Shown here one piece after another: positions 9,097 to 64,000 of a stretch of 64,000 nt of DNA. Under the pieces are notes generated by a model that saw nothing but the letters and a program-made list of their open reading frames with translations, was not told the DNA's origin and searched no databases. Source of the DNA: Microvirga soli. Its GTDB lineage: Bacteria > Pseudomonadota > Alphaproteobacteria > Rhizobiales > Beijerinckiaceae. Position numbers and translations under genes: made by a program. Position 1 is the first letter of the stretch; the number at the start of each line of letters is the position of its first letter. The stretch is from NCBI RefSeq assembly GCF_016734765.1, contig NZ_JAERQE010000001.1, forward strand, positions 1 through 64,000, read 5' to 3'.

Positions 9097-9636
9097 ATGC
9101 TCCTCCGACTGTTGCGTTTCAGCGTCCTGATCCTCGCCCTCGGCCTGGCCCTTGGCAGTTGCGGATATATTCCCCGGCAGGTCGCGGGCCTCCCGACGGA
9201 TGCATCCTGGGATGCCCTCCCTTTGCGGAAGTGGCTGGCCGAGGATCGGTCCGAGCCTGTTGCCCTGTCCTTCTGCGCCCCACCCGAATGCAGCCCGGGC
9301 CTCGCCGTCAGTGTGGTGCGTCTGACGGGAAAGGACGCTGACATTACGGAAGCCGTCCTGAAGGATCCGGAGCGCCTGGCTCGGGCCCTGCGCTCGCCGG
9401 CAGGTCGGGCCAAGCCGGTCAAGACCCTGATCACCGTTGAGCGCCTGAGAGAGGGCCCCTATCCGGGCTTTGCCATCGATCTTGCCCCGGCCGACGGCGG
9501 CAAGCGCCCGGCCTATGGCGCGGCCTTCGGCAGGCGCGAGGGCGAGACCCTGTCGGTCGTGCTGGCGATCGGCGAGGTTCAGGATGCTGTGCGTGAAACG
9601 GCCAGGCAGGTCGCTGCCCGCGAATTGGGCTCATAA
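9097..9636 (+). CDS. putative lipoprotein of unknown function
   Basis: 179 residues. The N-terminus is a lipoprotein signal: basic MLLRLLR, a hydrophobic run, then a lipobox LGSC with the cysteine at residue 22, so it should be a periplasmic membrane-anchored lipoprotein. The mature part has no family that I recognise. It contains an FCAPPECSPG stretch with two cysteines that could form a disulfide and is otherwise soluble in character. It sits between the repeat cluster and purS, with 132 bp to the purS start. Confidence 0.75.
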   Translation: MLLRLLRFSVLILALGLALGSCGYIPRQVAGLPTDASWDALPLRKWLAEDRSEPVALSFCAPPECSPGLAVSVVRLTGKDADITEAVLKDPERLARALRSPAGRAKPVKTLITVERLREGPYPGFAIDLAPADGGKRPAYGAAFGRREGETLSVVLAIGEVQDAVRETARQVAARELGS

Positions 9637-9768
9637 GGTTTCTGGGTTTGTCGCACGATCTTGCGGTGAACCGCCTCACACTTCACCGGATCGTGCTTCG
9701 AGCCCGTTGTTTCTTGGGCCCAATGCCTTTATGGCGTGGGGCACATCGTCAAACAGCCCGAGGCCCCC

Positions 9769-51271: not shown

Positions 51272-51684
51272 GATTGGGCCGCTTCCCTTGCTTCTGCTGC
51301 CCGACGAGCCAAGGCTCCGGCAACCACCCGCTGAATATTTTGTTGAGCTGGAGATTGCCGTCACACGGCCCGATTGGCAAGTCCAGGCCTCCAGGCGGGG
51401 GCTTGCCATGCGCCGGAGACGGGAACACCCATGCGGTCCGCAATCTCACTTGCGTACCGCTCGGTGTCGCCCGGGCGGCATTGGACCACCTTTGAAATAC
51501 TAGCCCCTACGCGACATATGCGTGAACAGGCCGAAGGCTGATCTGCAGCTTGAAGGGGACAGGGACGACAAATTGTGGCAAATCTTGTTACCCGAGAAGC
51601 ACATCCAGCCCTAGCCTTGACCGTCCGCACAACCCGCAAAGTGTCCCTGAGGCCCGAGCCAGTATCGTGCGGCGAGGCGGTCTG

Positions 51685-54600
51685 ATGAGCATTAGGACAG
51701 ATCCGCCCATAACGCCTTCTTTTCTCGCCGGAGGCGGCGAGATGGGAGCCCTCATGCGAAGCCATGATTGGTCAGGCTCTCCGCTTGGGGCACCGGAGAC
51801 CTGGCCGCAGTCCCTGCGTTCTGTTGTGGGTCTGCTCCTCGGCTCGAAATTTCCGATGTTCGTCGCCTGGGGGCCGGAACTCGGATTTCTCTACAACGAC
51901 CCTTATGCCGAGATCCTCGGCGCCAAGCACCCGGCGGCCCTGGGTCAGCGCTTCCATGACATCTGGTCGGAGATCTGGCCGGACATCTCTCCCTTGATCG
52001 ATGCGGCCCTGGCAGGCGAGGCGACCTATCGCGAGAACTTGCCTCTCCTGATGAACCGGAAAGGATTCGACGAGCAGACATGGTTCACCTTCTCCTACTC
52101 GCCGGTGCGCGACGAGAGCGGACAGGTTGCGGGCATGTTCTGCGCCGTTGCCGAGACGACCAGTCAGATCCTGGCAGAACGGCGACGGACATTCCTGCTG
52201 GACCTTGAGGAGTGCCTGCGCAACGCCGCCACGCCCCGCACGGTCATGGATGCGGCTGTCGAAGCGCTCGGCCGACACCTGGGAGCCTCCCGTGTCGGAT
52301 ACAGCGAGGTTCAGGGCGACGGCGAGACCATTGTCTGCGCCACTTGCTACGCGGACGGCGTTGAGCCGATCCTCGGCACATTCCGCCTCGACACTTTCGG
52401 CCGAGCAAGTGTTGATCGCCAGCGTGGAGGCGCCACGGAAGTCGTGAACGACGTCAAGGCGGACCTGGCACACGCGCAAGAAACCTGGGCCGCGATCGAC
52501 ACCCGCGCCTTCGTGTCCGTTCCGCTCGTGCAGGAGAAGCGCCTTCAAGCCTCCCTCTATGTGAACCGTCGCCACCCGCACGCCTGGACAGCGGACGAGG
52601 TCACGCTGATCGAGGACGTTGCCGCTCGCACTTGGGCGGCGGTCGAGCGAGCGCGGGTCGAAGCCCAACTACGCGACAGCGAAGCGCGCTTTCGGCTCAC
52701 CGCAGATGCGGTTCCTCAGATCGTGTGGATCATCGACGCGGAAGGTCGGACCGAGTTCTTCAACAAGCAATGGTTCGACTATACCGGGGTCCCCTACGAG
52801 CCGACGACCGCCGCCGAGGTGGCGTCCAATCATGTCCATCCTGACGATGAAGCCGCAACATTAGCCGCATTCGACGAGGCTCGCCGCGCAGGAACGACCT
52901 TCCTGGTCGAGCACCGCATCCGTTCGGCAGCGGGCACCTACCGCTGGTTCCTTGTCCGTGCGGACCCCTACCGCGATCCGGCTACCGGCAAGATTTTGCG
53001 CTGGTTCGGGGCGTCGGTCGACATCCACGACCGCAAGGTGGCGGAAGACTCCTTGCTGGCACTCAATGCCAACCTGGAACGCGAGGTTATCGAGCGCACT
53101 CGCGAGCGCGGCCTCATCTGGCAGCACAGCCTGGACCTTCTGTCCGTCATCGATATGGAGACTGCAACCTTCGACGCCGTCAACCCGGCGTGGACGGCTT
53201 CTCTCGGTTGGGCAATGGAGGAACTCCAGGGTCGTCCCTATGGGGACTTCGTGCACCCGGACGACACTGGCGCGAGTTCACAAGCGTTCGAGCGGGTGCG
53301 AGAGGGCAGCCCTGTGCTGCAATTCGAGAACCGCTACCGCACAACGGACGGTGACTGGCGCTGGTTGTCCTGGGTGGCTGTGCCCGAGAGTGGCAAGCTC
53401 TACTCGGTGACACGCGATGTCACTGCGGAGAGGAACCGGCAAGCCAGACTTGAGGCGGCTGAAGCGGCTCGGCGCGATGCGGACACGCTTTACCGCACTT
53501 ATTTCGAGAACACGCCTGAGGCGCTGTTCGTGATCGCGGTTAGCACCGACGGCAGCTTCGTCGTCGAGGAACTCAATCCCGCTCACGAGGCGGGCATTGG
53601 CTTCAAGCTGGCGGATGTGCGCGGCAAACGCATCGAGGATATCCTGCCACCCGACGTCTCGGATCGCGTGCTGGCCATCTATCGACAGGTTGTCGAAACT
53701 GGAGAGGTCTATCAGTTCCGCGAGGTGTTCGACCTTTCCGGAGACCCGCAGTACTGGGACACCTCGCTGGTGCCCATGCGCAATGCCGAAGGCCGGATTG
53801 TCCGGTTGATCGGTTCGAGCCGCAATGTGACACGTCAGGTCGTCGCCGAAGAAGCGCTGCGCCAGAGCCAAAAAATGGAGGCGATGGGCCAACTCACGGG
53901 CGGGGTGGCGCACGACTTCAACAATCTCCTTACGCCCATTTTCGGGGCGCTCGATATGCTGCAGCGGAAAGGCCTAGGAAGCGACCGGGAGCAGCGCTTG
54001 ATTGCAGGCGCGGCCCAGTCGGCAGAGCGCGCCAAGACGCTCGTCCAGCGTCTGCTCGCCTTTGCCCGCCGGCAGCCCCTCCAAGCTGTTCCGGTGGATG
54101 TCGCCAAACTGGTAACGGGAATGGGAGATCTCGTCGCGAGCACGACAGGGCCGCAGATCAAGGTGGTCGTAGACGCACCTGAAGATCTTCCTGCCGCCCT
54201 GGCCGATCCCAATCAGATCGAGATGGCGCTCCTGAACCTTGCCGTGAACGCACGCGACGCGATGCCCGAAGGCGGCACGCTGCGCATCTCGGCTCGCATG
54301 GAGCGTGTCAGCCACGACCACCGCTCAAAGCTTCACCCTGGTGTCTACATCTGCCTGTCGGTGGCTGACACCGGCTCAGGCATGGACGAGTCGACGTTGG
54401 CCCGTGCCGTCGAGCCGTTCTTCTCCACCAAAGGCATCGGCAAAGGGACGGGCCTGGGGCTCTCCATGGTGCATGGTCTCGCGTCCCAACTCGGTGGAGC
54501 GCTCACGATCCAGAGCCGGCCTGGTCTCGGAACCAATGTCGAGCTCTGGCTTCGGCAAAGCCCTGTTGCCCCAGCGACGGACGAGCGTCCTCCGGAAGCA

Positions 54601-54969
54601 ACGCTACCTGATGTCAAAGTTGGGAGAGCGCTCCTCGTCGACGACGAGGAGCTCGTTCGGATGAGCACGGCCGAGATGCTGATCGACCTCGGTTATGCGG
54701 TCATTGAGGCCTCTTCAGCCGAGGAGGCGATGCGGCTGATCCACAGAGGCGAGACATTCGATTTACTCGTCACCGATCACTTGATGCCTGGGATGAACGG
54801 AACCGATCTCGCACGGGAAATCCGATCAATGCGGCCGACCGTGTCCGTTCTCCTGGTGTCCGGATACGCTGAGCGCGAGGGGATCGATCCCGACCTGCCG
54901 AGGCTCACGAAGCCTTTCCGAAAGGACGAACTTGCAGCCGGGCTGGCGCAACTGCCGTCGCTCAACTGA
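51685..54969 (+). CDS. hybrid histidine kinase (PAS-GAF-PAS3-HisKA-HATPase-REC)
   Basis: 1,094 residues, no transmembrane segment, so cytosolic. Order: N-terminal PAS-like domain (about 20-160), GAF (about 170-330), three PAS domains (about 335-465, 475-600, 610-735), HisKA with phospho-acceptor H743 in GGVAHDFNNLL, HATPase_c (about 850-965, with NLAVNARDAMP and GKGTGLGLSMV), and a C-terminal receiver with D1031 in VTDHLMPG. It converges on the second hybrid kinase with 67 bp between stops. The start at 51685 leads straight into MSIRTDPP. It could feed the nearby chemosensory cluster, but that is inference. Confidence 0.92.
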   Translation: MSIRTDPPITPSFLAGGGEMGALMRSHDWSGSPLGAPETWPQSLRSVVGLLLGSKFPMFVAWGPELGFLYNDPYAEILGAKHPAALGQRFHDIWSEIWPDISPLIDAALAGEATYRENLPLLMNRKGFDEQTWFTFSYSPVRDESGQVAGMFCAVAETTSQILAERRRTFLLDLEECLRNAATPRTVMDAAVEALGRHLGASRVGYSEVQGDGETIVCATCYADGVEPILGTFRLDTFGRASVDRQRGGATEVVNDVKADLAHAQETWAAIDTRAFVSVPLVQEKRLQASLYVNRRHPHAWTADEVTLIEDVAARTWAAVERARVEAQLRDSEARFRLTADAVPQIVWIIDAEGRTEFFNKQWFDYTGVPYEPTTAAEVASNHVHPDDEAATLAAFDEARRAGTTFLVEHRIRSAAGTYRWFLVRADPYRDPATGKILRWFGASVDIHDRKVAEDSLLALNANLEREVIERTRERGLIWQHSLDLLSVIDMETATFDAVNPAWTASLGWAMEELQGRPYGDFVHPDDTGASSQAFERVREGSPVLQFENRYRTTDGDWRWLSWVAVPESGKLYSVTRDVTAERNRQARLEAAEAARRDADTLYRTYFENTPEALFVIAVSTDGSFVVEELNPAHEAGIGFKLADVRGKRIEDILPPDVSDRVLAIYRQVVETGEVYQFREVFDLSGDPQYWDTSLVPMRNAEGRIVRLIGSSRNVTRQVVAEEALRQSQKMEAMGQLTGGVAHDFNNLLTPIFGALDMLQRKGLGSDREQRLIAGAAQSAERAKTLVQRLLAFARRQPLQAVPVDVAKLVTGMGDLVASTTGPQIKVVVDAPEDLPAALADPNQIEMALLNLAVNARDAMPEGGTLRISARMERVSHDHRSKLHPGVYICLSVADTGSGMDESTLARAVEPFFSTKGIGKGTGLGLSMVHGLASQLGGALTIQSRPGLGTNVELWLRQSPVAPATDERPPEATLPDVKVGRALLVDDEELVRMSTAEMLIDLGYAVIEASSAEEAMRLIHRGETFDLLVTDHLMPGMNGTDLAREIRSMRPTVSVLLVSGYAEREGIDPDLPRLTKPFRKDELAAGLAQLPSLN

Positions 54970-55036: not shown

Positions 55037-57031
55037 CTATCTTGGACCCTGGATGATATTCCGAATGCGGGTGGTCAAGGCTTCGACCGCGAAGGGCTTG
55101 GTGATCATCTCCATTCCTGGATCAAGGAAGCCGTTCGCCAGTGTGGCGTTCTCCGCATAGCCGGTGATGAAAAGCACCTTCAGGTGAGGCCGCGTCTCTC
55201 GCGCAGCATCGGCGAGTTGCCGCCCGTTGATTCCCGGCAAGCCGACATCCGTGACGAGCAGATCGATGCGTTGCCGCGACTGCAGGATCTTGAGGCCCGC
55301 AGGACCATCCGACGCTTCGAGAGCGCGATAGCCCAGGTCCTGGAGCACTTCGACGATCAGGTTGCGGATGACGGGCTCATCCTCGACCACCAGCACCGTC
55401 TCGCCCGCCTCTGCCCGGGAAACCGCGGCATGGGAAGCCGGAAACGTCTCCTCCTGGGCGGCGCCACGGTGCCGCGGAAGGTAGATTCTGATCGTCGTGC
55501 CCTGCCCCACCTCCGAGTAGATTTTGACATGGCCCTCGGATTGCTTGGCAAAGCCATAGACCATTGAGAGCCCAAGCCCTGTGCCCTGGCCTATGGGCTT
55601 CGTGGTAAAGAAGGGCTCGAAAACGCGCTCGGTCAGATCCGGCGCCATGCCCATGCCGGTATCCGTGATGCAGATCGCCACATACTGTCCCGGCGTGATG
55701 TCAAGGTGAGTCGCCGCATAGGCCTCATCGAGAGAGGCATTCGCCGTCTCGATGGTGAGCTTGCCGCCATCCGGCATGGCATCGCGCGCATTGATGGCAA
55801 GGTTCAGGATGGCGCTCTCGAGCTGGTTGGGATCGCACAAGGTCGTCCACAATCCGCCCGCCGTGACGATCTCCAGGGCATGCAGAGGACCTATGGTGCG
55901 GCGGAGCAGATCCTCCATGGAGGCGATGAGCTGGTTGGCATTGACCGGCTTCGGATCGAGCGGCTGCCTGCGGGCGAAAGCGAGCAGGCGGTGAGTGAGC
56001 GCAGCAGCCCGCTGCGCCGAGCTCATCGCCGCCTTGGCATAGCGCCCGACGTGTTCCGTACGTCCCTGTGTAATGCGGGTCTGCATCAGGTCGAGAGAGC
56101 CGACAATGCCTGCAAGGAGGTTGTTGAAGTCGTGGGCGATACCACCTGTCAGTTGCCCGACGGCCTCCATCTTCTGAGCCTGGCGAAGCTGCTCTTCGGC
56201 GCGCAGAAGCTCCTGTGTCCGTTCCTCGACACGCTCTTCTAGGGTCTGGTTCAGGTGCCGCAGCGCTTCCTCTGCGGCTCGACGTTCGTTCACATCACGT
56301 AGAATGGCCGTCACGAAAATACGTGTATCGCTCTGCCAGCGCGCGGCGGAAACCTCTAGGAAGCTGACCGATCCGTCCTTGCGCCTGGCCGTGACCTCCA
56401 GGGGACGGTGCATGGCATTTCCTGCCAGGACACTTGTCCAGAGTTCATTCCATGTCTCAGGCACATTCAGAAGCGCGGTCATCTCCAGACCGATGAGTTC
56501 GCGCAGAGCATACCCGAATTCCCGTGCAGCCGCCGGGTTGGCGAGCTGGATGACGCCTTGAGCATCGAGAGTGATGATTGCGTCCGGAGCGCTGTTCACC
56601 ACGGCGTCGTAACGTGCGTTCTGACGCTCGCGCAGGACCTGCTCGCGTTGAACGGCAACCGTAACATCGACGATTTGCACGAGGCATCGGAGATCCGGCG
56701 GCGTTCCCAGCGGGCGCACGGAAACGTTGTGAATGAGCTGCCTTCCCGAGCGGGTCTGCAGCGGCAGGATGAGCGGGTGCAGGGAATGGGTCAGGAGCCT
56801 TGAGGAGCCTGCTTCCAATGTGTCCCTGATGGCGGATTTGAGCCCAGGCGAGACTGCTCCCGGGAACAGCTCATCCAAAGGTCGTCCGGCAGCCTCCTGA
56901 CCTGAGATCCCGCTGGCCGAGGCGAACCACGCGTTCCAAGCAATCACCCGCATGCTGCCATCGAGCACGATGAGGCCCGTATCTACGGCGTCGAAGACCG
57001 ACGATAGGAGTTCATCTTCAAGCTGATGCAT
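55037..57031 (-). CDS. hybrid histidine kinase (PAS-PAS-HisKA-HATPase-REC)
   Basis: 664 residues, soluble. Two PAS domains (about 5-115 and 135-250) are joined by coiled coil to HisKA with H300 in GGIAHDFNNLLAGI, an HATPase_c domain (NLAINARDAMP, GQGTGLGLSMVYGF) and a receiver with D595 in VTDVGLPG. The H-box type matches the kinase at 51685, so the two belong to one subfamily. It begins 3 bp after the cheC-like stop, making it the last gene of the chemosensory unit. Confidence 0.92.
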   Translation of the reverse strand: MHQLEDELLSSVFDAVDTGLIVLDGSMRVIAWNAWFASASGISGQEAAGRPLDELFPGAVSPGLKSAIRDTLEAGSSRLLTHSLHPLILPLQTRSGRQLIHNVSVRPLGTPPDLRCLVQIVDVTVAVQREQVLRERQNARYDAVVNSAPDAIITLDAQGVIQLANPAAAREFGYALRELIGLEMTALLNVPETWNELWTSVLAGNAMHRPLEVTARRKDGSVSFLEVSAARWQSDTRIFVTAILRDVNERRAAEEALRHLNQTLEERVEERTQELLRAEEQLRQAQKMEAVGQLTGGIAHDFNNLLAGIVGSLDLMQTRITQGRTEHVGRYAKAAMSSAQRAAALTHRLLAFARRQPLDPKPVNANQLIASMEDLLRRTIGPLHALEIVTAGGLWTTLCDPNQLESAILNLAINARDAMPDGGKLTIETANASLDEAYAATHLDITPGQYVAICITDTGMGMAPDLTERVFEPFFTTKPIGQGTGLGLSMVYGFAKQSEGHVKIYSEVGQGTTIRIYLPRHRGAAQEETFPASHAAVSRAEAGETVLVVEDEPVIRNLIVEVLQDLGYRALEASDGPAGLKILQSRQRIDLLVTDVGLPGINGRQLADAARETRPHLKVLFITGYAENATLANGFLDPGMEMITKPFAVEALTTRIRNIIQGPR

Positions 57032-57034
57032 AGA

Positions 57035-57682
57035 TCAGGATGCCATGCCGTCGGTTGCCCGCTCGATAAACTCACCGAGCAGGCTTTTGAGTACGGCCAA
57101 GGAAGGGATATCCATCAGCATGACGATATAGCCGCTGATATCCCGTTGCCGGACCGTGAAGTTTATATAGAGGAACATCACCACGTCGGCAGCCTCGGGT
57201 GGAGGCGCAAGGTTGAAGAGCTCAGGTCCTTTTCCCCGAATGATCTCCGGCAGGGACATCTTCAGGCTGCGATGGAGCATATTGGCGATCGTGCCCAGGC
57301 AGCCGTTCAGCAGAATGTTGCCGGTCTCGGCCAGTGCCTCCTGCTCCAGCTCAATGATGTCTTCAAGAGACAGCTCTCCGCCTGTGACCGCTCGGACGAG
57401 CTCGAGGCTCTTGGTCTCGGGGAAGATCAGCAGGGCACGCCCCGTGATGTCTCCCTCGAAGACCTGGTGAACCGCCACGAGCGGGCCGGCCTCGCGTCCC
57501 TCGAGGATTTCGATGGCCCGCGTACGATGCACAAGATCGACACCTGGCACGGAGAGATGAACCTGCTCGCCGACCATCTCGCGAAGGCTGAAGGCGGCAC
57601 GGCTGACACCGATGTTCACGAGTTCCGTCAGAGCATCGAGCTCCAGCTCGTTGAGCACTTCCGAGATCGTTGACGCCATCAT
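57035..57682 (-). CDS. cheC: CheC-type CheY-P phosphatase
   Basis: 215 residues, matching CheC in length and in both phosphatase sites: E20-x-x-N23 in LTELVNIG with the downstream LSVPG, and E119-x-x-N122 in LAETGNILLNGCLGTIANML with the downstream SLPEII. With both sites kept it should dephosphorylate CheY-P. No cheD is in view, although CheC often pairs with it. It lies 50 bp after the CheY gene, the expected substrate. The start is MM at 57682 or 57679. Confidence 0.88.
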   Translation of the reverse strand: MMASTISEVLNELELDALTELVNIGVSRAAFSLREMVGEQVHLSVPGVDLVHRTRAIEILEGREAGPLVAVHQVFEGDITGRALLIFPETKSLELVRAVTGGELSLEDIIELEQEALAETGNILLNGCLGTIANMLHRSLKMSLPEIIRGKGPELFNLAPPPEAADVVMFLYINFTVRQRDISGYIVMLMDIPSLAVLKSLLGEFIERATDGMAS

Positions 57683-57732
57683 CTCAACCCTCGGCCGTAG
57701 CGTGTCGCTAGGTTTTTCGAGACTAACACTTG

Positions 57733-58116
57733 TTAAGCCGCGCTCGACCGCAGGCGCAGGGCTGCTCCGGAAATGAATCCTCTCAAACCGTCTTCCGTCA
57801 GAGGCTTGCTGACGAAAGTGGCGTTCACCTCCCGGGCCCGAGCGATCACCTCGTCCTGAATGTTGGCTGTAATCACCGCAATCGGCATCGTCGGATGACT
57901 GGAACGGATTTCCGTGGCCAGTTCGAGCCCATCCTTCTCCGGCATGTTGAAGTCGATCATGGCCAGGTCGATCTTGCGCTCGCCCAGGATAGCAAGGGCC
58001 TCCCGGGCGTTGCCAGCCTCGACTCTGTCCCATTCAGGCTGAAGGGCGGCCAGAGCCTTGGCTGCGACGATGCGCGCAAGCTTGCTGTCGTCGACGATCA
58101 GAACCGTTATCACCAC
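57733..58116 (-). CDS. single-domain response regulator (CheY-like)
   Basis: 127-residue receiver domain without output domain. The acidic pocket is in LIVDDSK, the phospho-acceptor is D55 in MIDFNMPEKDG, with T83 in VITAN and the lysine in FVSKPL. It lies between the STAS and CheC genes and is the probable output of CheA in this unit. Whether it acts on flagellar motors or another target cannot be told. Confidence 0.92.
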   Translation of the reverse strand: MVITVLIVDDSKLARIVAAKALAALQPEWDRVEAGNAREALAILGERKIDLAMIDFNMPEKDGLELATEIRSSHPTMPIAVITANIQDEVIARAREVNATFVSKPLTEDGLRGFISGAALRLRSSAA

Positions 58117-58217
58117 TCAGATACTCCGCTAGGGATAGACTGCCCGGGATAACCGGATCGACTAGGAGAGAAAGGCCGTAAGTCTCTTTTAGTGTATGCC
58201 GGGAGAATGACAACGTT

Positions 58218-58487
58218 TCAGCTGCCCCGCTGGTCTGATTCGACAGGGTTTTTTCCCACCAAAGCCGGAGCGATCCAGTCCCGGAGAAAACTGTCCCCTG
58301 CCGCTCCGCGGATGGTTGGGCGCAGAGCCATCAGAACCTGGAGAACGGCGGCGTGGAGATGCTCGGCACCCGCCAGGTCGACCATACGCCCCCTGTCGGC
58401 CTGGAGCCATCCGAGCAGCGGCTCCGCGTCCTCGACCCGGCATAACCCTTCCAGGATGATGACATTGCCGTCCAACCGCACGCTCAT
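58218..58487 (-). CDS. STAS-domain protein lacking the phospho-acceptor serine
   Basis: 89 residues with the STAS (anti-sigma factor antagonist-like) pattern: N-terminal strand VRLDGNVIILEG, then VDLAGAEHLHAAVLQVLMAL, in which the usual D-L-S...I-D-S-S/A-G-L motif is altered. The phospho-acceptor position reads Ala (A46, in LHAAVL), so it should not be switched by a serine kinase. Its start overlaps the cheA stop by 4 bp (ATGA), which ties it to CheA. Function within the unit is unknown. Confidence 0.75.
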   Translation of the reverse strand: MSVRLDGNVIILEGLCRVEDAEPLLGWLQADRGRMVDLAGAEHLHAAVLQVLMALRPTIRGAAGDSFLRDWIAPALVGKNPVESDQRGS

Positions 58488-60478
58488 ACGATCAGCTCCG
58501 GGATATCGAGAATCATAAGGACGCTGCCGTCCCCGAGCAGGGTCGTCCCCATCACCCCGGGCATGTTCGCGAGAATGCCGGTCATAGGCCGCATCAATAC
58601 GTCCATCCGCTCGGCAAATCCATCCACCGCAACCCCGACCAAATCGTCACCCGCCGCCATGACGACGATCTTCAGGCGCTGAGGGGCCTCTCCCAGGGCT
58701 TGTATTCCCAAGAGATCGGCAAGTCTCACCAGAGGAAGCGTCCTGTCACGCCAGACGAAAGCCTCCGCGTCTCGAACCGGAAGGACTCGGGAGGCCGGCA
58801 CGAAGGCAGTCTCGATGATCCCATCGAGGGGAATCCCGTAGAGCTCGTGGCCCAGCCGGACCGCCATGACTTTCGTCATGACGATGGTCAACGGGAGCGA
58901 CAGGCGAATTGTCGTGCCCTGACCGGGCAGGCTTCGAACGCTGGCCTGCCCGCCCAGGCGCTCCACCGCGGAGCGTACCGCGTCCATACCGACTCCCCGG
59001 CCGGACAGGTCGGTCACCTCCGATGCGGTCGAAAAGCCTGGGGCAAAGATAAGGTCGAGGGCGTCCCCATCGCTCATGCGATCAAGGTCATCCACTGAAA
59101 CGATCCCGCGTTGGCGCGCCGCCTCACGGATAGCCGCCGGATCAATGCCCTGTCCGTCGTCCCCGACCTCGACCTTGACGCGGTCGCCATCGCGATAGGC
59201 CTTGAGCACAATCCTGGTTTTTGCAGGCTTCCCGGCCTCCAGACGGAGACGTTCAGGTTCGGCGCCATGGCCGACGGCATTGCGCAGGATATGGAGCAGC
59301 GGCTCGAAGAGACCCTCCACCACGGCCTTGTCGGCCTCGACCTCCTCGCCTTCCATGGAGAAGTCGATGGCTCTGTCCAGCTGACCTGCGAGATCGCGCA
59401 CCGCCTTGGGAAAGCGTCTGAAGATGTCCCGCAAGGGCATCATGCGAACATCCATCACGGCCCCATGCAGTTCGGCCACAAGGCGTTCGATGGCAGCCTG
59501 ACTCGCAAGCAGGCCCTGCGCAACATGCTTCCGATCCAGCCCGTCGTCGAATTGTCCCGCCAGATGCGCCAGCGCGTTTTTGGCGATGACCATTTCACCG
59601 ACGAGATCCGCCAGCCGGTCGATTCGCGAGGCGTCGACACGCAGCATCCGTGCGCCCGCTCCACCGGTGGCTCCCGTCGCGGCACCGGCGCCTGCGCCGT
59701 TCAGCGCTGCAATGGAAGCCTCGTTCTGAGCGGCTTGGGCGACTTCATGAAGGGTCACCTGATCCGGTACAAATCGAAAGACAGCCTTGACCCTGTCGAG
59801 TTCGGCACCGGAGAGCGCTTCGATCCTCAGATTACAGGAGAAAGGGTCGATTTCAGCCGCAGGCGGCCACGGGTCCCGGGCCGAGAGACGAACGGCCAGG
59901 AGATCGGGAACCGAGCGCAGGAGCGCCATCGGGTCATCGCCTGCAAAGAAGCAGTCGGCCCGCGGCGTGTACCGGATCGCCACCAGAGGATGATCCTGCG
60001 CCCTCAGGGCTGCCGGATCATGGGCCTGGGCCATCAGCTCCTCGACCCAGCCAAGATCGGCCTGGAGCGCCGCATCTGGAGCTTGTGCAGGATCCTCATC
60101 GAGCTGGGAGCGCAGAGCCCGCGCCAGCTGGTAGCCCTCCTCCGCAGCGTCCGGCGGCAGCTGTCCTGTCTGCTCGATCACGGCAACCCACCGTTCCGCC
60201 TGACCGATGCAGGCGAGCAGGCTGTCGATCACATGGGTGTCGATGCCGGCCCGCTTCTCCCTGAGAGCGCCCAGCAGGTCCTCGGCGGCATGCAGGGCAA
60301 TGCCCATCGGGGCGAAGTCGAAGAGGCCGACCGATCCCTTGAGCGTGTGAACGGCTCGAAAGGCGCTGTCCATGGGCGCAGTCGCCTGCGGGTTGCGCTC
60401 CAAGGCCAGGAGGTCATCCGTCGCCTGCTGAATCAGCTCGTGGGCTTCGACGATGAAATGCTGGAGAAGATCATCCAT
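58484..60478 (-). CDS. cheA: chemotaxis histidine kinase CheA
   Basis: 664-residue CheA. Domains: HPt with phospho-acceptor H44 in AFRAVHTLKGSVGLF; a middle region with a second receptor/regulator-binding-like part (about 170-265); P3 dimerisation after a Gly/Ala linker (about 285-355); P4 HATPase with HILRNAVGHGAEP, VGDDGQGID, and GRGVGMD; P5 CheW-like from about 515 to the end. All catalytic blocks look intact. It overlaps the cheR stop by 8 bp and the STAS start by 4 bp. No P2 of the E. coli type is evident. Confidence 0.94.
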   Translation of the reverse strand: MDDLLQHFIVEAHELIQQATDDLLALERNPQATAPMDSAFRAVHTLKGSVGLFDFAPMGIALHAAEDLLGALREKRAGIDTHVIDSLLACIGQAERWVAVIEQTGQLPPDAAEEGYQLARALRSQLDEDPAQAPDAALQADLGWVEELMAQAHDPAALRAQDHPLVAIRYTPRADCFFAGDDPMALLRSVPDLLAVRLSARDPWPPAAEIDPFSCNLRIEALSGAELDRVKAVFRFVPDQVTLHEVAQAAQNEASIAALNGAGAGAATGATGGAGARMLRVDASRIDRLADLVGEMVIAKNALAHLAGQFDDGLDRKHVAQGLLASQAAIERLVAELHGAVMDVRMMPLRDIFRRFPKAVRDLAGQLDRAIDFSMEGEEVEADKAVVEGLFEPLLHILRNAVGHGAEPERLRLEAGKPAKTRIVLKAYRDGDRVKVEVGDDGQGIDPAAIREAARQRGIVSVDDLDRMSDGDALDLIFAPGFSTASEVTDLSGRGVGMDAVRSAVERLGGQASVRSLPGQGTTIRLSLPLTIVMTKVMAVRLGHELYGIPLDGIIETAFVPASRVLPVRDAEAFVWRDRTLPLVRLADLLGIQALGEAPQRLKIVVMAAGDDLVGVAVDGFAERMDVLMRPMTGILANMPGVMGTTLLGDGSVLMILDIPELIV

Positions 60479-61328
60479 CGCGGTCGCTCCCCGGCCGTTG
60501 ATAGACGATCGCATCCTCGAAGCGGCGAAGGTCGAAACGCTTCGAGATCCGAGTCATCGACTCGGTATGGCCGAGACAGATGTATCCTCCCGGATGCAGG
60601 GACTTGTAGAGATTGTCGACAGCGAGGAGGCGGGAGGAATCGTCGAAATAGATGAGAACGTTGCGGCAGAAGATGACGTCGAATTGCCCCTGCGCCGCAA
60701 CAGAAGCGGGATCAACGAGATTGGCCGATGTGAACTTCACCGATTCACGCAAATCCTGGATCAGACTGCGCTGACCATCGCGAGACGGTTCGAAATAGCG
60801 CTCGACCACGTCGGGAGGCAAACGCGAAAGAGCACGCTCGCCATAATCTCCCGCCTGAGCGTCCAGCAGAACCTGCGTGTCGATGTCCGAGCCGACGATT
60901 TCGATATGATAGGCATCGACCAGCGGCCAATTCTCGAGCAGCCAGATGGCGATGGAATAGGGCTCCTCGCCCGTGGAGCATGGCACGGACCAGATCCGAA
61001 CGAGATCACCGGGTTTCCTGCCCTGCACGATCTCGGGCAGGAGCGAGCGGCTCAGGCAGCGGAGCTGATGCTCCTCACGGTAGAAGTAGGTTTCGTTCAC
61101 CGTGAAGATATTGATCAACTGCTCGATTTCGCGGCGGTCGGCTTCGACATGCGCGAAATAGGCATTGAAGGTGCGCATTCCCGTCGCGGCCATGCGGTCG
61201 GCGATGCGCCTTTCGATGTAGTACCGCTTGGTTTCACCGAAGATCATGCCGGTGCGATGGTGGAGGAATCCACCGAGGCGCCGAATCTCGTCGGCCGTGA
61301 GCGCCTGGGCCTTGCGCGGCCTGCTCAT
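60471..61328 (-). CDS. cheR: chemotaxis protein methyltransferase CheR
   Basis: 285-residue SAM-dependent glutamate methyltransferase acting on MCP receptors. The N-terminal helical domain (IRRLGGFLHHRTGMIFGETKRYYIERRI) is followed by the SAM fold with NETYFYREEHQL, IWSVPCSTGEEPYSIA, FDVIFCRNVLIYFD and LGHTES. No C-terminal TPR is present. The start overlaps cheB by 4 bp (ATGA) and the stop overlaps cheA by 8 bp. Confidence 0.94.
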   Translation of the reverse strand: MSRPRKAQALTADEIRRLGGFLHHRTGMIFGETKRYYIERRIADRMAATGMRTFNAYFAHVEADRREIEQLINIFTVNETYFYREEHQLRCLSRSLLPEIVQGRKPGDLVRIWSVPCSTGEEPYSIAIWLLENWPLVDAYHIEIVGSDIDTQVLLDAQAGDYGERALSRLPPDVVERYFEPSRDGQRSLIQDLRESVKFTSANLVDPASVAAQGQFDVIFCRNVLIYFDDSSRLLAVDNLYKSLHPGGYICLGHTESMTRISKRFDLRRFEDAIVYQRPGSDRDG

Positions 61329-62425
61329 GAGCGCTCCACCATGTCCATGATCCGGTCGGCAATCTGCTCCAGGGGCGCGACAACCTCCGCGCCGCCTCGG
61401 CGAACCAATTCTCCGGGCATGCCCCACACGACGGCACTCTCTTCCGCCTCCGCAATGGTGCGCCCGCCCTGCGCTTTCAGCCGCGCCATCGCGTCGGCTC
61501 CATCGCTGCCCATGCCGGTCATCAGCACCCCGAGCAGGCGTTCGGGGGCGAAATGCTGCATGGCGCTGTCCACCAGCCGATCAGCGCTCGGATGCCACCG
61601 GTGCTCCGGCAGAGAGGGAGCGGCCAGCACTACAGGACCATCCGGCCGAGCGCTGATGATGACGTCGGCATCGCCCTTGCCGATATAGACGTTGCCGGGG
61701 GCAAGCGGCATCGGCAGAGCTGCTTCCGTCACGTTGAGCGCGCACAGCTTGTCGAGCCGGCGGGCCAAGGGGCCGGTGAACGTGCCCGGCATGTGCTGCG
61801 CCACGACAATCGGCCACGGAAAGTCGGCCGGCAGCCGCGACAGCACCGTATCGAGTGCAGGAGGACCTCCGGTGGAGACGCCGATCAGCACCAGACCATG
61901 GGCAGGCGCAGCCTTGATCCGCCGCTTCGGCGGCGCGGGCTGCGCACGCCGTCGCGGCACCTGAGGAGATGATGCCTGTCCCAGGCCGCTGCGCAGCCGC
62001 ACCCGCTCGGCCAGTCTCAGGCTGCTGGGCAAACGAGCCCGCGACGCAGCGCGCACCGTCTCCACGAGTCTCGGGGCGAGCGTCTCCATTTCTAGCGATA
62101 TGGCCCGGTCGGGCTTCGTGATGAAATCGACGGCTCCAAGCTGGAAGGCTTCGAGGGTCACGCTCGCGCCTGCTTCCGTGAGAGAGGAGATCATCACCAC
62201 CGGACACGGGCGCTCGAGCATGATGCGGTCGAGACAGGCAAGACCATCCATCTCCGGCATGTGCACATCGAGCGTGATCACGTCCGGCCTGAAGGCCTGC
62301 AATTGCTCCAGGGCCTCGACACCGTTGCGGGCGAAGGCGATCTCGAAATCTCCCTCGGCGGTGAACACCCCACCAAGGAGACGTCGCATCAGAGGAGAAT
62401 CGTCGACGATGAGCAGCCGGATCAC
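61325..62425 (-). CDS. cheB: chemotaxis response regulator methylesterase CheB
   Basis: 366 residues: receiver domain (phospho-acceptor D53 in VITLDVHMPEMDG), a variable basic linker at about 135-175, and the methylesterase domain with the catalytic Ser in GVSTGGP, His in AQHMPGTF and Asp in MTGMGSDGA. It removes methyl groups from MCPs under CheA control. ATGA overlaps link it to cheW upstream and cheR downstream. Confidence 0.94.
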   Translation of the reverse strand: MIRLLIVDDSPLMRRLLGGVFTAEGDFEIAFARNGVEALEQLQAFRPDVITLDVHMPEMDGLACLDRIMLERPCPVVMISSLTEAGASVTLEAFQLGAVDFITKPDRAISLEMETLAPRLVETVRAASRARLPSSLRLAERVRLRSGLGQASSPQVPRRRAQPAPPKRRIKAAPAHGLVLIGVSTGGPPALDTVLSRLPADFPWPIVVAQHMPGTFTGPLARRLDKLCALNVTEAALPMPLAPGNVYIGKGDADVIISARPDGPVVLAAPSLPEHRWHPSADRLVDSAMQHFAPERLLGVLMTGMGSDGADAMARLKAQGGRTIAEAEESAVVWGMPGELVRRGGAEVVAPLEQIADRIMDMVERS

Positions 62426-63888
62426 GAAGCGGACCGCTCCGGGTCGCTCTCACCCATGGCTGCGAGCAGATCCTTCTCCGCCCTGTCCAGCAACTCGCGC
62501 GGATCGAGCAGGAGGATCATTCTTCCCTCGACCTCGATGTTGGCGATGCGGTCGATGACCTGGCTCCCGTCCGCGGCCAGATCGGGGGTCGGGCGAAGCT
62601 GGCTTTGCGGAATGCTGATAACCTCCGACACGGTATCGACCACAAAGCCAGCCTGCATCTGGTCGATCCTGACGACAACGACGCGCTCCCGCCGTCGTTC
62701 TCCCTGCGCCTCGAACTTGAAGCGCCGCCGCTGATCGATCACGGGAACGACGCGGCCCCGCAGGTTCATGACGCCCTCGATGAAGGCGGGAGCCTTAGGC
62801 ACCCGTGTCAGCGCATCGGGCACGCGCACCACCTCATCGACAGCCCCGATGGGCAGCCCGTATTCCTCGCCGCCGAGTTGGAACACGATGAACTGCTCGT
62901 CGCCCGTTGAAGCGTCGTCCGCGGTGCTCATGTCGTGGTTCTTCCCCGTTTGCGACGTGATCTGCTCGATCAGCGCCTGATCCCTGAACAGGTGATCCGT
63001 CGACAGCACCGAGACCAGCCGCCGGCCACCTTCAAGACGACAGATGCCCTGGATCTGAGCCTCCGCATTTCCCCGTGTCAGGATAGCCGGCACAGGATCG
63101 ATGGCGCTGTCGGGAAGGCGAAGGATTTCCTTCATGCCGTCGATGGCGAGCCCCACGAGCCCATTGCCGATCCGCGCCACCACCACGCGGGACCGCTCAT
63201 TGGTCTGCCCACCTGTGCGAAGCCCGAGGAGCGCGCGCAGGCACACCAGCGGCAGCAATTGCCCGCGCAGGGACGTCACACCCAGCATGACGGAATCCGT
63301 CTGCGGGACAACCGAGACACCGTCCGGCAGGGCCACCACCTCGCGAACGGAGGTGAGCGGCAGGGCGAAATCCTGCCCGGCCACCGCAAAGCATACCAGC
63401 GCAACCTGGTTCTGTTCCAAGGCCGCTTGATCCTGCCCGTTGGCCACAGCCTGGACCTGCCGGTGCTGAGCCCGGCGGGTGAAGGTGCCGAAATCCTTGG
63501 CCAGCAAAGCATCCAGGTCGATCATCCGCGCAGGCGCGCCCGTGCCCTCATCGGCGGCGGTGCCCGGGGAAACGCCACCGGCGCTTCCCAGCGAAGTCAC
63601 CTTATCGATCATGAGACCGACCGGGACGCCGCGGTCGATCACTACGACACGTGCATTCGGCGAGGGGCGAGCCTCTCCCCCGAGAAGGCGATGCAGCGAC
63701 ACTACGGGCATCACCGCACCCCGCAGATTGGCCACCCCGAGCAGGCTCGAAGGCCCGAGGGGGACGCGGGTCACGGCTGGAGGGCGGATCACCTCGGATA
63801 CATCGGATGCCGGGAGGGCGAAGCGCTCATCGCCGACCTGCACGGTCAGGACCGACTGGGCGACAGCCGCAGGGGCCGCCTCGCTCAT
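62422..63888 (-). CDS. cheW: triple-domain CheW coupling protein
   Basis: 488 residues made of three tandem CheW domains, at about 8-150, 170-310 and 335-475. Each has the family core: LPASDVSEVIRPPAVTRVP...GVANLRGAVMPVV; LPLTSVREVVALPDG...GVTSLRGQLLPLV; LPIGAVDEVVRVPDALTRVP...GVMNLRGRVVPVI. Most CheW proteins have one domain (about 160 residues). The linkers are short, polar or Gly/Ala-rich. It lies 4 bp after the MCP stop and overlaps cheB by 4 bp. It should scaffold receptor and CheA, perhaps linking several array units. Confidence 0.92.
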   Translation of the reverse strand: MSEAAPAAVAQSVLTVQVGDERFALPASDVSEVIRPPAVTRVPLGPSSLLGVANLRGAVMPVVSLHRLLGGEARPSPNARVVVIDRGVPVGLMIDKVTSLGSAGGVSPGTAADEGTGAPARMIDLDALLAKDFGTFTRRAQHRQVQAVANGQDQAALEQNQVALVCFAVAGQDFALPLTSVREVVALPDGVSVVPQTDSVMLGVTSLRGQLLPLVCLRALLGLRTGGQTNERSRVVVARIGNGLVGLAIDGMKEILRLPDSAIDPVPAILTRGNAEAQIQGICRLEGGRRLVSVLSTDHLFRDQALIEQITSQTGKNHDMSTADDASTGDEQFIVFQLGGEEYGLPIGAVDEVVRVPDALTRVPKAPAFIEGVMNLRGRVVPVIDQRRRFKFEAQGERRRERVVVVRIDQMQAGFVVDTVSEVISIPQSQLRPTPDLAADGSQVIDRIANIEVEGRMILLLDPRELLDRAEKDLLAAMGESDPERSAS

Positions 63889-63892
63889 GACC

Positions 63893-64000
63893 TTAAGACT
63901 CCGCCATCTGGAGTTCGTCAGCCAGGGAGGCGATCTCTTCAATGGCAGCCGCCAGATCCTCGGCGCCTCGCGCCTGCTGGCGCGCCGCGGTGGCGGCCTG
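63893..64000 (-). CDS. methyl-accepting chemotaxis protein, C-terminal fragment
   Basis: Only the last 35 codons are inside the window. The visible peptide (QAATAARQQARGAEDLAAAIEE... ending in LADELQMAES) is a charged coiled coil with the Q/A/E pattern of the membrane-distal or methylation-helix end of an MCP. It is directly upstream of the CheW gene (4 bp gap), which supports the call. The sensing domain and the tip lie outside the window. Confidence 0.65.
   Translation of the reverse strand, partial: QAATAARQQARGAEDLAAAIEEIASLADELQMAES

Follow-up and report, generated by a model that had tools for sequence, protein, structure and literature searches.

A chemosensory cluster of class F9 in Microvirga soli

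What feeds a chemosensory array whose one cluster-encoded receptor carries no recognisable sensor domain, and what does such an array act on? The question is raised by nine genes of Microvirga soli at the end of the window, by which we mean the whole 64,000-bp stretch of DNA analysed here (C87:1-64000 of a 6.25-Mb draft genome). All nine lie on the minus strand and, read leftward, encode a methyl-accepting chemotaxis protein (MCP), a triple CheW, CheB, CheR, CheA, a STAS-like protein, CheY, CheC and a hybrid PAS kinase, with successive inter-gene gaps of +4, -4, -4, -8, -4, +101, +50 and +3 bases. The assignment of this cluster to chemosensory class F9 is well supported, and a widespread variant of that class, which we call type b, is distinguished by its CheC and hybrid kinase. 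The nine genes, their order and their four overlaps had been described in the initial annotation, made from the sequence of the window alone, and were borne out by open reading frame (ORF) coordinates and by Pfam models, which match every gene of the cluster except the STAS-like one. The genes are as follows, in window coordinates.

63893..64000, minus strand: 3′ end of dosM, a gene that extends to contig position 65839 (648 amino acids); two stretches of Pfam MCPsignal, AlphaFold model
62422..63888, minus strand: cheW3, three concatenated CheW domains (488 amino acids); Pfam CheW, E 6.5e-91, 3 stretches
61325..62425, minus strand: cheB, receiver and methylesterase; Pfam, aligned conserved residues
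60471..61328, minus strand: cheR methyltransferase; Pfam, E 6e-55
58484..60478, minus strand: cheA with Hpt, dimerisation, HATPase and CheW-like domains, without a fused receiver; Pfam
58218..58487, minus strand: short STAS-fold protein (89 amino acids), its start overlapping the cheA stop; AlphaFold and Foldseek, without a family match
57733..58116, minus strand: cheY, single receiver domain; Pfam
57035..57682, minus strand: cheC, putative phosphatase of CheY-P in which both active sites are kept; Pfam CheX/CheC, 1xkr, motifs
55037..57031, minus strand: soluble hybrid histidine kinase with 2 PAS, HisKA, HATPase and receiver domains; Pfam, hydropathy

The identity of the first of these genes was missed in the initial annotation, since only the 3′ end of the MCP gene lies in the window. 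Extending the sequence past 64 kb, as that annotation had proposed, gave a protein of 648 residues, here DosM, whose gene stops 4 bases before cheW3. It carries two MCPsignal domains (one Pfam family), no other Pfam domain and no recognisable sensor domain. A hydropathy scan found a single weak hydrophobic stretch, at the second tip, and otherwise no membrane segment, and the AlphaFold model (predicted local distance difference test score, pLDDT, 88) has helices at residues 36-195, 197-345 and 350-647, which fits two successive hairpins. Both tips could be located in 91 of 100 DosM proteins examined; their spacing is exactly 300 residues in 78 of these and lies between 297 and 304 residues in the others. 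The first tip has the usual ALNAA core, with N in 91/91, and the second reads MLAV, followed mostly by S and then by G (91/91). This G stands where the first tip has A after its invariant N, in both of the F9 types described below, and the fixed contrast in motif indicates that the two ends of DosM are consistently different.

Published work is cited here from excerpts of the papers named. According to these, the DosM and CheW3 architectures are unique to class F9 (PMC9321776), and Vibrio cholerae, which has DosM and a triple CheW, uses these proteins to build a sandwich-like array in the cytoplasm, whose two CheA/CheW baseplates (PMC7534058) lie 35 nm apart (PMC7184735). Both published signs of the class, a receptor with tandem signalling domains and a triple-CheW adaptor, are present in the Microvirga cluster. 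Flagellar neighbours, an ordinary MCP and a single CheW, the traits of a standard alphaproteobacterial flagellar che operon, were not found in it, nor were the receiver-fused CheA and two separate CheWs of systems like Che3 of Rhodospirillum centenum (alternative cellular function, ACF).

CheC and a hybrid kinase mark a widespread variant of class F9

A CheC-profile scan of genomes returned 320 stretches and 263 relatives, of which the best 80 by CheC similarity were retained, a set that is silent on F9 clusters without cheC by reason of the way it was chosen. In 76 of these 80 loci dosM, cheW3, cheB, cheR, cheA, cheY, cheC and the kinase gene lie on one strand and in one order, and the four remaining loci are on contigs of 5-11 kb. 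The search for this gene order in other genomes, which the initial annotation had suggested, was thus answered by eight collinear core genes, a degree of collinearity that places the order beyond chance. With 15 other loci the set amounts to 95 type-b loci, four of which came in from both of two collections, leaving 91 distinct loci; the residue counts given below include these four twice. Type-b hosts belong to Microvirga, Bosea, Bradyrhizobium, Ancylobacter, Caulobacter, Phenylobacterium, Sphingomonas, Novosphingobium, Nitrospirillum and Devosia and, outside the alphaproteobacteria, to Paraburkholderia and one bin labelled as a gammaproteobacterium. The CheC of M. soli is 98 % identical to the CheC of Microvirga splendida and of Microvirga sp. 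BT688.

The best match to the hybrid kinase adjoins cheC in 94 of the 95 loci, and in the exception (L154) a better kinase match lies 2.1 kb further on and a second kinase is present. This fixed position confirms the suggestion of the initial annotation that the kinase is part of the chemosensory system. The window protein has two PAS stretches and its relatives have up to about four; a hydropathy scan found no membrane segment in 94 of the 95 kinases, including that of the window.

In six other F9 loci (L057, L058, L060, L061, L073 and L074), here type a, the STAS gene is followed by genes for a lone receiver and an MCP; these MCPs show the signalling domain alone in Pfam (6/6 scanned). In one type-a locus (L073) a further gene, at 9104-9766 on the plus strand, separates cheB from cheR and looks HEAT-repeat-like by eye. 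The relationship of the two types was examined in a CheA tree for which 42 rows were drawn from the 95 type-b loci and set against seven further F9 loci and two long-branched outgroups. The tree label "a" covers every F9 row that is not type b: eight were chosen, L071 was dropped as too short and L062 is of undecided layout, and the tree holds one identical pair. All 42 type-b rows fell on one side of a branch with support of 97/99, recovered in 96 % of 200 bootstrap trees. The single branch suggests that the exchange between cheC and kinase on one side and receiver and MCP on the other, which distinguishes type b from type a, probably happened once. The initial annotation had reasoned that a CheA classing with a flagellar type would tell against an alternative function. 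The outcome was divided: the type-b clade excludes the CheA encoded on the flagellar contig of this same genome, but that CheA groups among the other F9 rows (93/92, on a long branch and with two outgroups in the tree), so that the CheA tree alone does not prove class.

A DosM profile, built from type-b members only, matched genomes at much the same frequency in the order (12 of 397) and in the phylum (9 of 398), with 3 genomes common to the two sets. The 18 distinct genomes comprise seven with type b, six with type a and five of other or incomplete layout: G451 and G649 at contig ends, G618 and G261 without a cheC, kinase or MCP match in the sequence available after cheA/STAS, and G675 rearranged. 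The view that the gene composition is unusual was not supported, as CheC and the kinase belong regularly to a variant of broad distribution and STAS is common in F9. Class F9, DosM, CheW3 and the STAS gene are already in print, and the CheC-kinase variant is new as far as the open-access literature searched goes, in which we found no description of an F9 variant with CheC and a hybrid kinase, or with DosM as sole receptor; the supplementary tables of PMC9321776 and the 2010 class-defining paper may list such cases.

Conserved residues and the STAS-like protein

The phospho-acceptor histidine of CheA (H44) is present in 92/92 rows with a letter at this position. In CheB, S184 (91/91), H211 (91/91) and D308 (90/90 aligned rows with a letter), which we take to be the catalytic triad, are invariant, and CheY retains D54, K103 and a T or S, each in 94/94. 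CheC matches a CheC chain of known structure, 1xkr (E 7e-17), and both of its D/E-x3-E-x2-N-x22-P motifs occur in 95/95 aligned rows; the general form D/E/S-x3-E-x2-N-x22-P is presumably the active-site motif of the CheC/CheX/FliY phosphatases. For the hybrid kinase, a motif search found the HisKA histidine in 95/95 and the aligned receiver column has D in 94/94, a stricter pattern having matched 76 of 95 and missed 19.

The 89-residue STAS-like protein is matched by no Pfam or NCBIfam model, and a sequence-profile search of the PDB gave no match up to E 1. An AlphaFold model built from 65 relatives (mean pLDDT 86) had as its top Foldseek match the anti-sigma antagonist 4hyl (E 7.9e-4, the sole match below 0.001), followed by MlaB, RsbV and SpoIIAA chains and the STAS-bearing SLC26A7, with unrelated ClpP and APOBEC chains lower down; TM-scores against STAS structures were about 0.5. 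On the strength of this predicted model the protein is very probably a divergent or shortened STAS fold, as the initial annotation had called it. Its H45 is present in 82/82 type-b rows, and in 65/65 rows of a set that includes type a. The residue after this histidine varies over the 82 rows (T 30, A 23, L 10, G 9, M 6, F 3, S 1). STAS proteins of the anti-sigma-antagonist kind carry a phosphorylatable Ser/Thr in the loop preceding helix 2; the window protein has A after H45, and Ser/Thr switching there is therefore unlikely.

A STAS match follows CheA in 67 of the 79 loci of the 80-locus set that have a CheA match. In one of the STAS-less loci (L104) a possible STAS remnant was seen by eye. 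Such a match also follows CheA in all six type-a loci and in L062 and L070, within and outside the family, and is absent from L071 and L075, where the sequence extends past CheA; it was found in 7 of the 9 F9 loci of other or unclear gene order that reach past CheA. In print, a lone-STAS gene and a histidine-kinase gene appear among the gene-order symbols for F3, F7, F8, F9 and F14, in a figure whose legend does not give the class of each (PMC9239204), and a STAS-only protein, CheS, binds CheA in standard alphaproteobacterial che clusters (PMC12654446). The view that STAS is an unusual component of such operons thus did not hold.

A proposed circuit and its alternatives

We think it reasonably probable that the cluster encodes a complete F9 system of type b, with a two-baseplate cytoplasmic array, the PAS hybrid kinase as sensory partner, CheC as phosphatase and an output beyond the flagellar switch. 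DosM rods would link a pair of CheA/CheW3 baseplates, giving a sandwich array in the cytoplasm like that of V. cholerae, and CheR and CheB would adapt DosM. The STAS protein may dock on CheA and steer its phosphate, after the example of Sinorhizobium meliloti CheS; CheA would phosphorylate CheY, the hybrid kinase receiver or both, and CheC would take the phosphate off CheY. The hybrid kinase, the only cluster-encoded protein with recognised sensor domains, could through its PAS domains provide the cytoplasmic input for which DosM has no sensor, and the output would probably be a slower programme such as flagellum building, development, adhesion or stress. The template for this putative circuit is R. 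centenum Che3 with CheC added: in the CheA3-CheS3-CheY3 system CheA acts on a hybrid kinase, which feeds a lone CheY (PMC3868531).

Several observations weigh against this reading. The flow of phosphate among CheA, hybrid kinase and CheY is assumed by analogy, and its direction is unreadable from sequence. Rank correlation with CheA distances over 89 loci was 0.38 for the hybrid kinase, against 0.49 for CheC and 0.66 for CheR, so that the kinase appears fixed in place and freer in sequence, and may be swapped more than a tightly fitted partner would be. No STAS match was found in 12 of the 79 CheA-bearing loci, which show no clear frame by eye between cheA and cheY. The remaining points concern other receptors. 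The M. soli genome has nine further MCP-signal matches, one of them below the cut-off, and three of its MCPs (L170, L171 and L173) are without a membrane segment over their whole frames and could join the array. FliM and MCP scans covered 51 type-b genomes, namely 50 of the 80 and the M. soli genome itself (the 30 outside the scans include many metagenome bins or near relatives of those kept), and 49 of the 51 have other MCP-signal matches. In the other two, Ancylobacter aquaticus DSM 101 and Methylocapsa palsarum NE2, no MCP besides DosM was found; both genomes are drafts, and the M. palsarum cluster lies on a contig of 18.6 kb.

These receptors give substance to a different account of the input, in which ordinary cytoplasmic MCPs with genes elsewhere provide the signal and the hybrid kinase is the output, its receiver being phosphorylated by CheA, as CheS3 is by CheA3 (PMC3868531), and a downstream pathway being switched in this way. 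Such an input has been proposed for the V. cholerae F9 array, which needs another cytoplasmic receptor (PMC7534058), a survey concludes that the F9 signal must come from additional chemoreceptors or sensory proteins (PMC7534058, PMC9321776), and the receiver Asp kept throughout the type-b kinases agrees with a role as phosphate acceptor. We regard this account as possible though not likely, since the variable number of PAS domains looks sensor-like and, unless the drafts miss genes, the two genomes with no other MCP match mean that the input cannot always come from another MCP. In both of these genomes the hybrid kinase is kept and has two or more PAS stretches; all four CheW-domain matches of M. 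palsarum belong to CheW3 and CheA of the F9 cluster, and A. aquaticus has one extra weak CheW-domain match (25.6 bits; L219, 820-2106, minus strand), in a protein that by eye has a receiver-like stretch at its end and adjoins a ChpT-like gene. Three of 72 F9 species have F9 as their only class (PMC9321776), and these may include DosM-only cases. Only tentatively do we extend the preferred reading to an array without any sensory chemoreceptor, in which DosM would be no more than a scaffold and relay and the signal would arrive through the soluble PAS hybrid kinase exchanging phosphate with CheA, CheY and CheC. If true, the array would amplify the signal of an ordinary two-component sensor in the cytoplasm or serve as its memory; we found no description of such a wiring in the open-access literature searched.

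The output raises a parallel choice. It is very improbable that the cluster is a flagellar chemotaxis operon of the standard alphaproteobacterial type with further genes added to it: cheA, cheW, cheR, cheB, cheY and an MCP gene are present, FliM was found in 46 of the 51 type-b genomes and the flagellar-contig CheA lies near other F9 rows on its long branch, but DosM and CheW3 are F9 signatures (PMC9321776), that CheA is outside the type-b clade, and the flagellar genes lie on another contig with a cheA-cheW-cheY set of their own. FliM, FlhA and flagellin matches of M. soli are on contigs C98 and C106 and none is on the window's contig, where the initial annotation had asked whether flagellar genes stood immediately upstream; none was found there, the 18 kb past the window having been read by eye only. 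On C98, which bears FliM and FlhA, a CheA with a C-terminal receiver, a CheW and a CheY (L014 8187-11925; C98:328-332 kb) are probably the flagellar chemotaxis genes, which supports the earlier view that the window cluster is unlike an operon for the flagellar motor. A role in the building or number of flagella, like that of R. centenum Che2 for lateral flagella, is better founded, and we still hold it to be unlikely. An F9 system of R. centenum is said to govern the formation of flagella (PMC7184735); Che2, with a tripartite CheW, appears to be the system meant, as its mutants are hyper-flagellated or without flagella yet still chemotactic, with lateral flagella biosynthesis affected (PMC2890560), and by analogy its role supports an alternative function for alphaproteobacterial F9. 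Both this role and the standard operon fit the frequency of FliM. Five genomes are without FliM. A search of 11 of the 51 for FlhA and flagellin found FlhA in two of these five, leaving A. aquaticus, Microvirga pudoricolor and Microvirga aerophila without FliM, FlhA or flagellin matches. All nine cluster genes score in each of these three, so the flagellar switch cannot be the only output. CheC and a hybrid kinase are, moreover, not described for Che2 in the excerpts of PMC2890560, so that Che2 need not be type b.

Deletion of the V. cholerae F9 cheA gave no detectable phenotype in standard conditions (PMC7534058, PMC9321776). Type b offers a candidate input in the kinase that adjoins cheC almost without exception, a built-in phosphatase, and two species with DosM as the only chemoreceptor found, while the three genomes without the three flagellar genes help to separate the system from motility; what feeds F9 becomes testable in one environmental bacterium.

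Comparison with described systems

Cluster I of V. cholerae (F9; CheA1, VC1402 triple CheW, VC1403 DosM) has DosM, triple CheW, CheA, CheB, CheR and CheY in common with the Microvirga cluster, and its array is purely cytoplasmic. Its genes are given in the excerpts as cheY1, cheA1, cheY2, cheR1, cheB1 and a putative cheW, that is, with two cheYs and no cheC (PMC11940527); compared by description, the Microvirga cluster differs in its one cheY, its cheC and hybrid kinase and the lack of a further MCP gene within the cluster. R. centenum Che2, also compared by description, is alike in its tripartite CheW, alphaproteobacterial host and alternative function, and differs in its receiver-fused CheA and in that no CheC or hybrid kinase is mentioned for it in the excerpts (PMC2890560). 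Che3 of the same species, which governs cyst formation, likewise pairs a CheA system with a hybrid kinase acting on a lone CheY, but has two CheWs, a receiver-bearing CheA and an N-terminal receiver on its hybrid kinase (PMC3868531, PMC2890560). S. meliloti CheS, which binds CheA, resembles the STAS-like protein, by description, as a small STAS-only protein of a che operon; the operon is of a different class.

Flanking sequences and other loci

Upstream of dosM, an EcfG general-stress promoter was found in 1 of 86 sequences against a background of 21/1720, and a sigma-54-like promoter in 0 of 86; these counts lend support to neither. Conserved flanking output genes were likewise rejected as candidates, since outside the cluster none of the ORF groups recurred beyond 2 of the 12 loci compared; five groups were shared to that extent, four of which lie antisense to che genes.

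A second che cluster lies about 70 kb away in the M. soli genome (L013 5040-16204; C87:135-146 kb). It encodes a CheW, a TPR-CheR, a further CheW, a HAMP-MCP, a receiver-fused CheA, a CheB and two receiver/kinase hybrids, and thereby shows the traits of a R. centenum Che3-like (ACF) system. Elsewhere in the collection, one genome (G103) carries two near-identical orphan copies of cheC (L041 9698-10345, minus strand; L042 9820-10455, plus strand) with no che matches around them; an insertion-sequence-like transposase gene directly follows the L042 copy and an integrase-like gene is near the L041 copy, both labelled by eye. Within the window itself, a second hybrid kinase is encoded at 51550-54969 on the plus strand (1139 amino acids in the longest frame) with GAF, several PAS, HisKA, HATPase and receiver domains; its gene is convergent with that of the cluster's hybrid kinase, the two ends being 67 bases apart.

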